From: a virus
Length of the DNA stretch: 37,719 nt
IMG/VR virus record: IMGVR_UViG_3300027747_000008
Span: 1-37,719 of that record
Direction: 5' to 3' (one strand)
The notes beneath the pieces are model-generated. The model searched no databases, was not told where the DNA came from, and was given only the letters and a program-made list of their open reading frames with translations. Positions 2,945 through 26,463 of this stretch are shown one piece after another. Position 1 is the first letter of the stretch, and every line of letters starts with the position of its first letter. A program made the translations under genes and the position numbers.

Positions 2945-4858
2945 TCATTTTCCATACCTTTCCATGATTTGGGCTTCTACGTCAAGGGGCAGACCTTCAG
3001 CCCATGCAGGTGGGGTGCACATTATGCGCTCCATTTCTTGCATGGCTTCTTCGGGTCTGTCGGTCTCGATGACGATTTCATCGTGCACGTGCAGCACGAC
3101 GTCATCTAGATTTCTGAGGGAGTGGCGCAGCAGATCGTTGGCGGCGGCCTGCGTGATATTTTCGCATGCCAACCCTTTCCACAACCTTGCACGCGGCCAT
3201 TCTTTTGCATCAGCTGAGGGTTTCCACGCAGCCTTGGCGTACGTGACGTTACCCTCGTCGTCAAACTTAGCGAACGGATAGCACAGCACACGGCCAGAGG
3301 GTAGGGAATACCATAGGTGCACGCCGTCGTACAAATACGTCACACGTCCTGCCTTGAACTCACGGTTTTTGTTTCGCATTGCTCGCAAGTAGGCGGACTC
3401 CAACTGCTGCCAGTAAGTTGGAGCCCACGGATTTGCACGACGCCAAGCATCCACCATACGACGAGCGTCAGACTCAGGCAGAAGAACGCCATAAGCACGG
3501 CCCATAGCAGCGAAAGCCCCCACACCACCAGCAAAACCGCAGGCGAGCTCTTGAACTTTTCCGATTTGTCGCTGATCCTTAGTAACGGCATCAACGGCGC
3601 ATCCAAAGGTGGCGGCTGCGTTGACTTTGTAGACGTCTGCGCCTGTGCGGAAGAGGTCGAGCTTACCTCGGCCTGAGACTGAATCTGAGAGCCAAGGGGT
3701 GGCTCGGGCTTCGATTGCTGCCCAGTCGGCCACGACGAGTTGTTTACCAGCTGCTGGTACAAGCGCAGGTCGGAGCATGCCTTTGAGGACATCGGTGACG
3801 CGCTTGCCGTACTTGGGGACAACGCTGTGTCCTCGGACCATTGCTGCACGGACTGCGTCGGGCTCGGCAGCGCACTTGCGGGTAAAGTTGTGGACTTGGG
3901 CACCATAGCTAGAAGCTCGTCCAGTTGCTGAACCGCCTGCGAAGACAAAGGCCCCCCGTACGCGAAAGTCTTCAACGTCCGCGAGGTCTGCGAGGCGGCT
4001 GAACTTCGCAACCGACGACGCCCAAAGGTCATCGGCACATTGAATAACTTCGGCAACAGCGGGCGGTATTTCATCGGGGTTCTCCATGAGTAAAAGGTTG
4101 GCTCGGACGGTCTTGTCAATTGAATATTTCTCCCCGATGCGCATGAGCTCTTTGGCCTGCGAGCCAACACGCTCAAGCACCCACTGCTTCATCTTGGGCG
4201 AACGCACCGACAGAATGGCGCCTTCAGTCACCTCGGAGACAATCTGTTGTATTTCTACAACTTCGTCTGACGCGTACTCGATAGCTGCTCTGCACAGCGG
4301 CACGTCCACCAGCACGCCTCGGTCGTTGATGCGCTCGTTGACGTGGTAGTCGGCCAACTCTTCGGCTGACAGCGGGCGCATGGCTTGGCTAATCGCACGC
4401 ATGGCGCGCACGTCCTGCTCGCAGTACAAAATAAGTTCCTTCATCAAGGACTCATCGTTCTTGAACGGCGGCACGCACATCATGCGGATGAGCTGAGCAC
4501 CACGGTGGTCTTTCTTCATGCTGGCGCCGCTGAATCGCCCGACATCCTCAAGCGAGCCAGGCGCGCAATTGGCACGGGCTTGCGCGGCAGTGCAGACGAA
4601 CTGTTCGAGCTTGAACTCGATCTGAAGCACATACCAGAAGATCAACCGCTCAAACGTAGCGTTGTGGGCGTAGATGGGGCCAGTATGCTCACGCACATCT
4701 CGAGGGAATGGCTGGCCAAGCACCCACGTCTGCACCTCACCATCGCCGAAAGCGTAAGACATGCAAAGCACGTCGGTGCTGGCGTCCTGAGCGTAGTTGT
4801 ACACACCGTGTTTGCGCAAGTCACAAGCGCTGCGCGTCTCGAAGTCAAGCCAGAGCAT
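2945..4858 (-). CDS. DNA polymerase, family A, with 3'-5' exonuclease domain
   Basis: The 637-residue replicative polymerase shows the order expected of family A. The N-terminal exonuclease motif LDFETRS is at residues 4-10. Palm motif A is DWAAIEARATPWL near 376-388, in place of the commoner DYSQIELR. Motif B has DQRQIGK...FAGG..A..AYG near 424-455. Motif C is HVHDEIVIE near 588-596. The chosen ATG (4858) overlaps the upstream stop as TGATG. An ATG four codons earlier exists, but it lies deeper in the upstream gene. The stop overlaps the next start (ATGA at 2948-2945), so translation is coupled on both sides. No thioredoxin-binding insertion is apparent by eye. Confidence 0.93.
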   Translation of the reverse strand: MLWLDFETRSACDLRKHGVYNYAQDASTDVLCMSYAFGDGEVQTWVLGQPFPRDVREHTGPIYAHNATFERLIFWYVLQIEFKLEQFVCTAAQARANCAPGSLEDVGRFSGASMKKDHRGAQLIRMMCVPPFKNDESLMKELILYCEQDVRAMRAISQAMRPLSAEELADYHVNERINDRGVLVDVPLCRAAIEYASDEVVEIQQIVSEVTEGAILSVRSPKMKQWVLERVGSQAKELMRIGEKYSIDKTVRANLLLMENPDEIPPAVAEVIQCADDLWASSVAKFSRLADLADVEDFRVRGAFVFAGGSATGRASSYGAQVHNFTRKCAAEPDAVRAAMVRGHSVVPKYGKRVTDVLKGMLRPALVPAAGKQLVVADWAAIEARATPWLSDSVSGRGKLDLFRTGADVYKVNAAATFGCAVDAVTKDQRQIGKVQELACGFAGGVGAFAAMGRAYGVLLPESDARRMVDAWRRANPWAPTYWQQLESAYLRAMRNKNREFKAGRVTYLYDGVHLWYSLPSGRVLCYPFAKFDDEGNVTYAKAAWKPSADAKEWPRARLWKGLACENITQAAANDLLRHSLRNLDDVVLHVHDEIVIETDRPEEAMQEMERIMCTPPAWAEGLPLDVEAQIMERYGK

Positions 4859-5412
4859 CAAACACCCCACTGACTGGCCATTGCGTCAGCAATACCTTGA
4901 TAGGTTGTAGACCGCAACTTCCAGCGGTCAGGGCTAGGCGGCATCTTGTGGATGCGGTCTGATCTGCCTTCCACAATGTCAGTTGGCGTAAGCAACGGTA
5001 AGCCTTTAAGCCAAAGGCAAGTTGCCTTAGTTTCACCATGCCCAAATTGCCACGGTTGAATGATCTGATCAGGTTTACGAATACGGCTAGAAATAATGCT
5101 TACAGGATTTTCCAAAGCAATCTTAGGAATGTCGGCATCTAGCAACATACGCACAAAATCTAAGGCTTCATCTTGTACACCACTGGCTTTTTTGGCAGCA
5201 AAGTGGCGCGCTCCAGATACGGCAAGATGAGTGCACGGTGGGTGAGCGATCATCAAGTCCCAACCATCGTTGATGATGTCGCGTACATCGCCTTGGTAGT
5301 GCGGCCCCGACACGTCGGTAGGCAAGATGTCACATGACATGGCGTCATGACCAGCGGCTAGAAATGCGTCACGCACTCGACCGCTGTATTCACAAGCAAT
5401 TAAAACTCTCAT
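4858..5412 (-). CDS. Compact cytosine-C5-methyltransferase-like protein
   Basis: The 184-residue protein begins RVLIACEYSGRVRDAFLAAG, which resembles motif I of DNA cytosine-C5 methyltransferases (S-adenosylmethionine site). It then has AHPPCTHLAVSG (56-67), like the PC catalytic-cysteine motif, and ALENP (99-103), like the ENV motif. It is much shorter than a typical enzyme of more than 300 residues and no separate target-recognition domain is visible. It could be a small modification enzyme, a nucleotide-level enzyme or a degenerate relative. The start ATG at 5412 has AAGGAG 7 nt upstream. It lies between the polymerase and the probable single-strand-binding-type gene, so a role in phage DNA modification is plausible but inferred. 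Confidence 0.65.
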   Translation of the reverse strand: MRVLIACEYSGRVRDAFLAAGHDAMSCDILPTDVSGPHYQGDVRDIINDGWDLMIAHPPCTHLAVSGARHFAAKKASGVQDEALDFVRMLLDADIPKIALENPVSIISSRIRKPDQIIQPWQFGHGETKATCLWLKGLPLLTPTDIVEGRSDRIHKMPPSPDRWKLRSTTYQGIADAMASQWGV

Positions 5413-5429
5413 TTAGTGGCTCCTTTCCA

Positions 5430-5453
5430 ATGCCCACTGTCACCAATGGGCAT
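5430..5453 (-). other. Short intergenic hairpin upstream of the methyltransferase-like gene
   Basis: ATGCCCA (5430-5436) and TGGGCAT (5447-5453) can form a 7-bp stem between the stop at 5468 and the ribosome site near 5420. No U-run follows in the leftward RNA, so it is unlikely to terminate. It may affect mRNA stability or be chance. Confidence 0.3.
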
Positions 5454-5467
5454 CAGAAAAAAGCTAC

Positions 5468-6088
5468 TTAGGCAGTCACACGACGGCGACGGCCAGCGGG
5501 AGCTTCTTCGACCTTCTCTTCAAGCGTTTCACCATCCATGCCAACCCACTCGACAATCTCAAACACTGGCGTGTAGATTTTGCCGTAGGACTTGTGCGCG
5601 TAGTGGTCTTTCTTCAGACGCACGACAGGCACGGGCTTGGACTGATCAGCCTCGACTTGGTTTGCGATGGCCACAGCCAAGGTCTGGACTGCGCGCTTGC
5701 CGCCAACCGAAGTTGCCGAGAAGCGTGCTTCCATGTCCTTGTCTTCACCAGACAAACACTTGAGAGACATACCAACTTGAGTTTCCCAACCACGCTTGGC
5801 GCCAGCAGGAGCCGCGTCCATTTCTGGTAATGGTTGGCTTACGCTAACCATTTTCTCACCCAATACTTCACCATCACCCCAAGCGATATATCCGTGGATG
5901 AAAGAGAAAGGGTTAATGGCCCAAGTGGCGTCAGCTTCAGCTTCAGTCTGGTCAGCGCCGAACACCCAGTGGCCGGTCTTGTCCATCTTCAGAATCACAA
6001 CGCCAGCAGGACCTGCTTCGGCTTCGAGAGCGCGCAGAGCAGTTGAGAGGCTGGTAACGGGAGGGAGGTTTGCGAGAGCGAATGACAT
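5468..6088 (-). CDS. Conserved phage replication-module protein, possibly ssDNA-binding
   Basis: The 206-residue protein has motifs I recognise from proteins in many phage replication modules: WAINPFSFIHGYIAWGDGEV (about 76-95), VGGKRAVQTLAVA and HKSYGKIYTPVFEIVEW (near 168-184). It ends in a charged tail with RRRRVTA. There is no enzymatic motif or membrane segment. Its place between a Cas4-like nuclease and the polymerase, and its moderate size with a charged tail, fit a single-strand-binding or accessory replication role, but that is inference. The ATG at 6088 has AAGGA at 7-8 nt, and the gap to the upstream gene is 11 bp. Confidence 0.7.
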   Translation of the reverse strand: MSFALANLPPVTSLSTALRALEAEAGPAGVVILKMDKTGHWVFGADQTEAEADATWAINPFSFIHGYIAWGDGEVLGEKMVSVSQPLPEMDAAPAGAKRGWETQVGMSLKCLSGEDKDMEARFSATSVGGKRAVQTLAVAIANQVEADQSKPVPVVRLKKDHYAHKSYGKIYTPVFEIVEWVGMDGETLEEKVEEAPAGRRRRVTA

Positions 6089-23882: not shown

Positions 23883-25091
23883 TTAGCCCCACAGGCGGAC
23901 AGCCATTTGTGGGCGGATTGTGCTGTAGCCATACAACACGTCGATACGGCAAGGCATACGATCGTTGTTGATGTCGTACTGGCGGACAATACGCAAAGAG
24001 ATGCCGTTGTGCACAGCGCGGCTGGCCATGTCGACGCCTTGAGGCAACAACAAGTCAGCAGTCGCGAATGTGATCGCATCTTTGTGGTACACCAAGTTCT
24101 GAGCGTACTGAGTAGACGCAGCACCCACGAACACAACAGCTTTGCTGTTACCAGGGAAACTGTCCACGGTAGCCAAAGCGTTAGCAGAAGTGTAGATAGG
24201 AGCAACGGTGATGTTACCTGCGCCAGAGCTGTCCAAAGTTGTTGCAGCAGTAGCAACGAATTGGAACAACGAACCGGTAGACTCGCGAGTCTGTGGGTTC
24301 ACAGCGTAGCAATCAGCAACAGTGAACACGTCGCCGATCTTAACCACGCCAGCGTTACCAGCACCAGTGATGGCGATAGTAGTTGCGCCTTGTGCAGTCA
24401 CAGCAGCAGAAGTTGTGCCGCCAGTAGCAGTACGTGAGCCAGTGGTGAATTGCTTGATCGACTGAGACATGTTGATCTCTTCAAAGCCCAACACGCCAGT
24501 GCCCATCATGCCGTTCTTGAATTGTTTGCTGATAGTGTCTGTTGGGTTGAACAGACCTTTCATGCCTTCAACCAAGCCAGCGTTAGCAGCAGGGTTCACG
24601 GTAGCGTAACGTGGGGACATCACAGCAGCGTTCTCGTTCAGTTTCTGTTGGGCTTGCAACAAGACCAAAGAAGTCGAAGGAGTGGTGCCAGGTGTACCAA
24701 CGGTGTTACCAACGCTCAAATAGGCGTTAGCGACATCAGCGTCGATGGACGAAGCCAACTGGCTGATACGAGGCTTCAACACACGCTCAGCGAAGTCATC
24801 CAATTGCAAGGTCAATTCAGCAGATGTGAAGTTGATACCGATGTGCTTTTGGCTGGCCACAGTCAAAGTGGTGTACTGTTCATTGTCGTCTTGAACTTGC
24901 AAGGCGGCGCCGTCAGTCACCAGAGCGCGGTCGGGCAAACGGATACGCAGGGTCGAACCAATCTTGGCACCTTCAACAGCGAAGCTGTCGTCGTACTGAC
25001 GGTTCACGTTACGGGTGATCACAAGGTTGTTCTCGAGGATCTCCAAACTTTTTCTTGTGATCATGTCAATGGTGAGAATCGAATTACTCAT
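23883..25091 (-). CDS. Major capsid (coat) protein, P22 gp5-like
   Basis: The 402-residue protein has the N-terminal pattern of P22-type coat proteins: ITRKSLEILENNLVITRNVN, then FAVEGAKIGSTLRIRLPDR (near 37-55) and VASQKHIGINFTSAELTLQL. It is close to the P22 length (430). It would form the HK97-fold shell with the scaffold encoded just upstream. AAAGGA precedes the ATG. It is flanked upstream by an HNH gene and downstream by a stable terminator, matching a need for very high expression. Confidence 0.9.
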   Translation of the reverse strand: MSNSILTIDMITRKSLEILENNLVITRNVNRQYDDSFAVEGAKIGSTLRIRLPDRALVTDGAALQVQDDNEQYTTLTVASQKHIGINFTSAELTLQLDDFAERVLKPRISQLASSIDADVANAYLSVGNTVGTPGTTPSTSLVLLQAQQKLNENAAVMSPRYATVNPAANAGLVEGMKGLFNPTDTISKQFKNGMMGTGVLGFEEINMSQSIKQFTTGSRTATGGTTSAAVTAQGATTIAITGAGNAGVVKIGDVFTVADCYAVNPQTRESTGSLFQFVATAATTLDSSGAGNITVAPIYTSANALATVDSFPGNSKAVVFVGAASTQYAQNLVYHKDAITFATADLLLPQGVDMASRAVHNGISLRIVRQYDINNDRMPCRIDVLYGYSTIRPQMAVRLWG

Positions 25092-25630: not shown

Positions 25631-25675
25631 ATTCTCCTAATTTCAAGTAATCATTCTACCTGATCTTAGGAGAAT
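25631..25675 (-). promoter_or_regulatory. Inverted repeat that can hide the HNH ribosome site
   Basis: ATTCTCCTAA (25631-25640) and TTAGGAGAAT (25666-25675) are perfect 10-bp complements 25 nt apart. In the leftward RNA the second arm, UUAGGAGAAU, contains the AGGAG of the HNH gene, and the first arm is its anti-Shine-Dalgarno next to the scaffold stop. Between them, TAGAAT (25658-25653, bottom strand) could be a -10 box. A transcript starting there would lack the first arm. Confidence 0.7.
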
Positions 25676-26463
25676 TAGCGGTTTTGTGCCTGCAACTTCT
25701 TAACCTGTCTTGCACGTTCGGCTTCAATCCACTGCGAGGTCGTCATGTTCTTGGTAGAACGTGGGTCCGTAGTGTCATAAGACGGCGCTCCAGTAGAGCG
25801 TGCGTTAACAGGAGAAATCGGCGCAGGCGCGGATGTAGTTCGTCTTACGGGAGGTTCAGCTGCCAACTTGGCTTCGATCTTCCCGATTTCCTTCGCCTGA
25901 CTGAGTGGCGACATGCGTGAGATGCGATCTGCGTCTTTGGGGTTGGAGCCGAGGTAGTAAGCTAACTCAGGGCCAATGTCCGAGGACTGGATCGTTTCTG
26001 CCATCACGTTTGTGATCGTCAACTTGGGGTTGTAGGCGACTTGTTCAAAGTCGTCGTACTTGTCCCGAGCTGCTTCTTCACGCTCTTGATAGCTTTCGAG
26101 TACGGCAGATTGCTGCTTGGCTGCTTCACGTTTGGCGATCAGTTCTTCGGCACGTTGATAGGCCAATGCTTCCGCATAGGCTTCAGGCGTCTCAAACTGG
26201 TCAACGGATGCAGTTGACGGAGCTCTCACGATCTGCGTTTCGGCAGCTCGCTGTTGCTGTTCTCGTTCCCACTTACGTTGCTCTCTTGCGAGGCGTTTGC
26301 CGATCATTGCATCGATTTCAGCCTGTGAGTACTTTTTTTCCTCTGGCTGTTCTTTGCTTTCATCAGCGACTTCCGGCGCATTTTCAATCGCTTCAGGAGT
26401 GGCCGTCACTTCTGGCGCAGGCGCGGAGTCAACTTCCGCTAAGGCTTGGACTTCTTCAGTCAT
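25675..26463 (-). CDS. Capsid scaffolding protein
   Basis: The 262-residue protein is typical of scaffolds: an acidic, Pro/Ala/Glu-rich N-terminus (EVDSAPAPEVTATPEAIENA), a highly charged helical middle (KRLAREQRKWEREQQQRAAE) and a basic C-terminus (SQWIEAERARQVKKLQAQNR), where P22 gp8 binds the coat. It lies upstream of the coat gene as in P22, where gp8 has 303 residues. No protease domain is present. The ribosome site is only moderate. Confidence 0.82.
   Translation of the reverse strand: MTEEVQALAEVDSAPAPEVTATPEAIENAPEVADESKEQPEEKKYSQAEIDAMIGKRLAREQRKWEREQQQRAAETQIVRAPSTASVDQFETPEAYAEALAYQRAEELIAKREAAKQQSAVLESYQEREEAARDKYDDFEQVAYNPKLTITNVMAETIQSSDIGPELAYYLGSNPKDADRISRMSPLSQAKEIGKIEAKLAAEPPVRRTTSAPAPISPVNARSTGAPSYDTTDPRSTKNMTTSQWIEAERARQVKKLQAQNR

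Follow-up and report, generated by a model that had tools for sequence, protein, structure and literature searches.

A hairpin hiding the ribosome-binding site of a free-standing phage HNH gene as a candidate relic of the group I intron P4-P5 domain

A hairpin that hides the Shine-Dalgarno (SD) sequence of a free-standing HNH endonuclease gene was found between the scaffold and coat genes of a viral DNA, and the same 20-nt hairpin core forms the P4-P5 stem of a group I intron in sister phages, where the same HNH gene is located inside the intron at coat codon 18. The DNA studied, referred to below as the window, is a stretch of 37,719 nt (IMG/VR record IMGVR_UViG_3300027747_000008, positions 1 to 37,719), and its minus strand carries the scaffold, HNH and P22-type coat genes in this order (Table 1). 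In the view that we lean towards, the hairpin serves this mobile HNH gene as a two-way expression switch and was built from the P4-P5 of a group I intron. The logic of sequestering hairpins is already known; the intron-relic origin of the hairpin appears to be new, and no report of a hairpin hiding a ribosome-binding site (RBS) as a relic of intron P4-P5 was found in the open-licence literature.

Table 1. Features of the scaffold-HNH-coat region of the window
Feature	Position	Strand	Remarks
Scaffolding protein gene	25675..26463	-	phrog_8865 head scaffolding, E 1.9e-31
Scaffold UAA stop	25675-25677	-	forms hairpin base
Whole hairpin, homologous to group I intron P4-P5 of sister phages	25631..25675	-	
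Lower-stem 5' arm AUUCUCCUAA (anti-SD, P4 position)	25666..25675	-	
Lower-stem 3' arm UUAGGAGAAU	25640-25631	-	
SD AGGAG of HNH gene, in 3' arm (P4' position)	25634..25638	-	
Internal-loop AA (intron J5/4 position)	25641..25642	-	invariant in 38/38 sequences
Conserved core GTAGAATGATTAC (P5-L5-P5'), consensus GTANNATKATTAC	25647..25659	-	only exact copy in the window
TAGAAT (TANNNT box), candidate -10 element	25653..25658	-	comparative basis
Predicted transcript start	near 25646	-	from candidate -10 box, comparative basis
HNH AUG	25626-25624	-	7-nt spacing from SD
Free-standing HNH endonuclease gene, 174 aa	25102..25626	-	phrog_2255 HNH, E 6.2e-7
Major capsid (P22 coat) gene, probable homing target	23883..25091	-	PF11651, E 7.3e-37
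Position of sister-phage group I intron in coat gene, after nt 53, GAGAT^CC	25038..25039	-	
Coat nt 46 (codon 16, coding-strand T)	25046	-	T with free HNH, C in empty alleles

Structure of the hairpin in the window

The computed structure consists of a 10-bp lower stem that contains the anti-SD and the SD, followed by a 2x2 internal loop (GA/AA) and an upper stem of 8 bp (UCAGGUAG/UUACUUGA), which is closed by the 5-nt loop AAUGA. Its folding energy was -24.6 kcal/mol (z -4.38), and none of 200 shuffles folded equally well. The SD of the HNH gene had an unpaired probability of 0.000 versus a median of 0.44, the lowest of the 32 SD-bearing starts of the window. An earlier sequence-only reading had described a perfect 10-bp inverted repeat at this place, in which the AGGAG of the HNH gene pairs with an anti-SD beside the scaffold stop, and had proposed folding of the scaffold-HNH junction as a check; its coordinates and repeat proved exact, and the pairing was confirmed by coordinates and by this folding. 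The TAGAAT box, which it had placed in the loop, is only half there: given that the 8-bp upper stem forms after the internal loop, the box straddles stem and loop, and its other half is paired.

By itself, a perfect 10-bp inverted repeat is no rarity, since six overlapping matches (at four places) were found in the window versus about 1.75 expected. What lies beyond chance is the 18-bp structure, its placement on the SD and its covariation among relatives. The Rfam search of the window gave no match, and the window holds no complete group I catalytic core, the P4-P5-like hairpin being the sole remnant.

A mini-ORF in the loop (AUG AUU AC*) was considered and rejected, as it is not conserved (ATTATT variants in relatives). 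Elsewhere in the window, at 5412-5485 on the minus strand, a hairpin of about 21 bp (z -4.6) encloses the AAGGAG of a methyltransferase gene (4858-5412); it was rejected as a second case, because related methyltransferase genes do not keep the hairpin.

Relatives of the HNH gene and covariation of the hairpin

The HNH protein was recognized by its profile match (Table 1) and by conserved Cys, DH motif and N residues, of which Cys and the DH motif are invariant; no match was found in Pfam, and its AlphaFold model (pLDDT 84.8) gave no fold match in the PDB. When the protein (query P0001) was searched against viral contigs, 136 relatives were found and 80 of them were kept; none was found in bacterial genomes. 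In each of the 80 kept loci, the HNH gene is either a same-strand neighbour of the coat gene or located within the coat intron, and the scaffold gene was also found upstream in 79. Every core-bearing relative is an uncultured contig. Among distant HNH homologues in annotated phages, the core was absent by inspection of the sequence preceding the match, the start codons having been partly checked; a distant homologue (39%) directly precedes the major capsid gene of another podovirus (L359, MW202512.1, 1489-1941).

Among the 82 records nearest by coat protein or coat-region DNA, 79 (77 viral contigs and 2 named phages) have no HNH gene, and the scaffold-coat gap is about 14-33 nt in nearly all of these HNH-less records. 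The same gap carries a different HNH family in the opposite orientation in L111 (1850-2450) and L158 (1900-2450), both on the minus strand, and L131 (about 2430-2500) seems to contain a remnant. Within the loci scanned, the exact core GTANNATKATTAC was present in one copy per locus and was restricted to HNH-bearing loci, the empty alleles being without it; a broad scan for the loop pattern was discarded as too unspecific.

The HNH-bearing loci were assigned to types by the position of the gene and by what the hairpin hides. In the SD type, which is the state of the window, the HNH gene is free-standing and the hairpin hides AGGAG. In the ATG type (L041, L055, L066 and L202), the gene is also free-standing and its AUG is hidden by the hairpin. 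In the intron type (L043, L056, L061 and L078), the gene lies within an insertion after nt 53 of the coat gene, downstream of which coat residues 19-402 resume.

When 38 distinct SD-type junctions were compared, both arms were found to covary, and 86.3% of the cells pair. Double changes were observed at 11 of the 17 pairs, with 46 double-change cells versus 11.8 in shuffles (0/500), and all five covariation measures exceeded 500 shuffles, while slid controls fell to 25-49%. The anti-SD tracks the SD in relatives, so that AAGGG is accompanied by CTCTTGA and GGAGG by GCCGCC. Predicted accessibility of the SD averaged 0.08 when the RNA reads through and 0.81 when it begins 6 nt past the box, one row without a recognisable SD being scored 0 in both. 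Sequestration of the SD, the core idea of the sequence-only reading, is thereby strengthened and, as judged by covariation in both stems and by an anti-SD that changes with the SD, well supported.

Homology to the group I intron P4-P5 domain

RF00028 aligned the HNH-bearing insertion of the sister phages as a group I intron, with the hairpin at P4-P5. The bit scores were 27-37 for the HNH introns, which are interrupted by the ORF, and 64-75 for ORF-less introns (gathering 50). The exons join in frame at GAGAT^CC, and the sister-phage element was classed as a group I intron by its RF00028 match together with its insertion in an otherwise intact frame. P (AATTCGGTGGA), Q (AACACCGAGCC), J4/5 and P5 of the P4-P5 domain (RF00028) can be aligned in the intron copies; the window copy differs in that the other intron parts are missing and P4 is turned into SD/anti-SD. 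The internal-loop AA, invariant in the SD-type hairpins, matches the J5/4 position of the intron.

At the same coat codon, L378, L379 and L395 carry group I introns that are about 215 nt long and ORF-less. Their P5-L5 sequences are unrelated and the HNH core is absent from them, and the core therefore belongs to the HNH gene. CATGTAAGATGATTACATG is identical in the free-standing copy of L041 and the intron copy of L043, whose HNH fourfold-degenerate sites match at only 28%. When five pairs of free ATG-type and intron copies were compared, 20-21 of 22 core positions were identical in four pairs and 18/22 in the fifth, at a fourfold identity of 24-39%. Since the free copies have no splicing duty and the P5-L5 of ORF-less introns is unrelated, the core would be kept for the HNH gene. 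On these alignments, the best reading of the free-standing hairpin is that of a P4-P5 relic that may have been carried along when the HNH gene left the intron.

In an HNH protein tree of 88 rows, from which the long-branch row L330 was omitted, the 51 free-standing sequences formed one side of a branch (94/97) versus 37 intron sequences. Distant outgroups rooted the tree on the intron side with introns basal, a polarity that depends on these long-branch outgroups; the free-standing clade was not starred. From the HNH reading frame, which runs through intron P4' and P6, we infer that escape from the intron is the likely course and is favoured over invasion of it. The reverse course seems unlikely; in it, as in collaborative homing, a free-standing HNH gene would have entered an ORF-less intron of the coat gene and brought a hairpin that took the place of P5. 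This course would agree with the presence of ORF-less introns at the same coat site and with the published model, which leads from free-standing to intron-borne genes (PMC2988022, PMC3984707). However, the ORF-less introns possess P4, J4/5 and Q of their own, and for the invariant J4/5-like AA of the free hairpins there would otherwise be no obvious explanation; the frame crossing P4' and P6 and the basal introns under the outgroup also speak against invasion.

Candidate internal promoter

The TANNNT box was present in 42/42 distinct rows of the SD type, in 9/9 of the ATG type and at 25 of the 26 distinct intron sites. It lies exactly 6 nt before the AUG at 34 of 35 distinct intron and ATG-type sites, which fits a -10 element that would yield a leaderless mRNA with its start at the A of the AUG. 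Among introns of a diverged clade (63-66% HNH identity), positions -13, -10, -9 and -8 vary and L5 is altered, yet T-12, A-11, T-7 and the arrangement TANNNT + 6 nt + ATG are kept in 12 of 13 diverged introns, the exception (L237/L386) being outside the clade by HNH identity. T-12 was read in the diverged intron sequences as kept even opposite a mismatched stem-partner T.

Upstream of the box, no -35 match above shuffles was found, and an extended -10 (TG) was absent in the SD class; a promoter here would therefore be weak or need an activator. Moreover, the SD class has T-12 and A-11 engaged in base pairs, and part of the conservation of TANNNT is therefore structural. We infer an internal promoter at the box with somewhat more confidence than doubt. 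An internal transcript start is plausible, given the conservation of the box throughout the SD-type sequences and its fixed distance in the sisters. For the proposal of the earlier reading that a short transcript would start within the loop, the conserved box speaks in favour, and the lack of a -35 and of an extended -10 in the SD class against. Taken as a whole, the earlier interpretation is supported in part.

Proposed switch and alternative explanations

In the presumed ancestral state, still found in sister phages, the HNH gene would be located in the coat-gene intron, with its start codon in the P5 3' strand and, 6 nt ahead of the AUG, a -10-like box in P5/L5. Pre-mRNA transcribed from further upstream would fold P4-P5 and hide the HNH start, and RNA initiated at the internal box would begin at the AUG and be leaderless. 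The HNH gene would then have moved out of the intron to a place between scaffold and coat, bringing the hairpin with it. In the window lineage, an SD would have arisen at P4' together with a matching anti-SD, the hairpin would hide the SD instead of the AUG, and a transcript from the internal box would free the SD. Of this scheme, computation establishes the structure, its conservation and its homology. To the fuller account, that P4-P5 doubled as a promoter and translation switch, was carried off and was rebuilt around the SD when the endonuclease escaped, and is thus a molecular fossil, we give an even chance.

A ribosome terminating on the scaffold gene has to be considered in this scheme. 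The footprint of a terminating ribosome extends about 9 nt past the stop codon. At the scaffold UAA it would cover UUCUCCUAA, the whole arm, and with the stop at the hairpin base the ribosome should open the lower stem, so that HNH translation from read-through RNA is probably coupled to the scaffold rather than silent. Neither this opening of the stem nor the homology to P4-P5 had been foreseen in the earlier reading, and its claim that read-through mRNA would be translated poorly may have to be narrowed to translation only when coupled to the scaffold. It is possible, at a chance well short of even, that such coupling acts as a valve without any internal promoter: the HNH gene would be off until ribosomes finish the scaffold, and a ribosome at the UAA would free AGGAG for limited initiation. 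Such a valve is favoured by the missing -35 and by the scaffold stop, whose distance to the 5' arm is 0-3 nt in almost every SD-type relative; but intron copies have the same core without an adjacent stop (the exon frame ends about 60 nt upstream), and the conserved TANNNT and its fixed 6-nt distance to the ATG would be left unexplained.

We regard it as improbable that the HNH protein uses the core as a DNA operator or recognition site, in the manner of I-TevI-like autorepression, and that the core is neither a promoter nor an RNA element. The loop core ATGATTAC does resemble ATGATCAC in the coat 5' end, with a mean best 16-mer match of 11.1 versus 9.6 for other coat segments; however, this resemblance is modest and comes from loci that do not count as independent, the diverged introns keep only TANNNT and its spacing, and RNA pairing is favoured over a fixed DNA sequence because the stems covary. 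Very improbable, finally, is a passive relic or a generic processing or terminator hairpin of late mRNA without HNH control, to which the intergenic position in a late operon would lend itself: the arms show compensatory changes, the core is identical at 18-21 of 22 positions despite saturated fourfold sites, and alleles without HNH lack the hairpin core. A terminator was also rejected on its own terms, with no terminator call and no U-tract.

Comparison with known systems

Hairpins that hide an RBS and contain an internal promoter have been described for I-TevI, I-TevII, I-TevIII, segB and Aeh1 mobE (PMC2988022). The analogy with I-TevI drawn in the sequence-only reading was correct, and segB and Aeh1 mobE are added to it by this source. 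As in these T4-type systems, the gene of a homing endonuclease, here a putative one, lies within a longer transcription unit, and its SD is buried on read-through RNA (here by folding and covariation); the candidate promoter in the hairpin would add a short RNA in which the SD is free (PMC2988022). In contrast, the phage of the window is not T4-type, and its box resembles a sigma70 -10 and not a T4 late promoter. Judged by its genes (scaffold-coat), the host operon is a late one itself, and therefore the timing would be reversed relative to the T4-type systems. Further differences are the homology of the hairpin to intron P4-P5 and the hiding of the AUG, with leaderless spacing, in the intron and ATG-type copies.

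Collaborative homing (cyanophage F-CphI and the psbA intron) is similar in that a free-standing endonuclease lies beside a possible intron-site target gene and ORF-less introns exist at the same site (PMC6083498, PMC3984707). It differs in that the intron-borne and free-standing HNH genes here belong to the same family in separate genomes and that the hairpin argues for the opposite direction, from intron to free-standing gene; cleavage is putative here.

There is still debate on how the HNH genes of phage introns are translated (PMC11855218), and it has long been asked whether free-standing endonucleases are the source of mobile introns or emerge from them (PMC3984707). At the coat locus described here, four natural alleles (empty, ORF-less intron, HNH intron and free-standing HNH) are linked by one traceable RNA module, so that both questions can be tested with short constructs. 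If the proposed history is true, the module would record the conversion of an intron-borne into a free-standing gene.

The coat gene as putative homing target

The scaffold-coat junction is an insertion hotspot. In the coat gene, nt 46 was T in 44/46 distinct free-HNH genomes and C in 73/76 empty alleles, and among 46 nearest coat pairs, 43 combined T in the free member with C in the empty one. The C-to-T change is synonymous and lies 7 bp before the intron site. HNH-associated coat sites numbered 7 in the first 90 nt versus 1, 1, 1 and 3 in the four 90-nt segments that follow, and C at nt 46 is mostly retained in the intron exons (18/22 distinct exon strings). This pattern would fit a homing target there whose carriers are recoded and immune; alternatively, it may reflect co-conversion or shared ancestry.

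A perfect 10-bp inverted repeat (TGATCACAAG/CTTGTGATCA) was also observed in the coat gene of the window at 25016-25063, its centre lying within 1 bp of the intron site; many of the relatives differ in its second arm.
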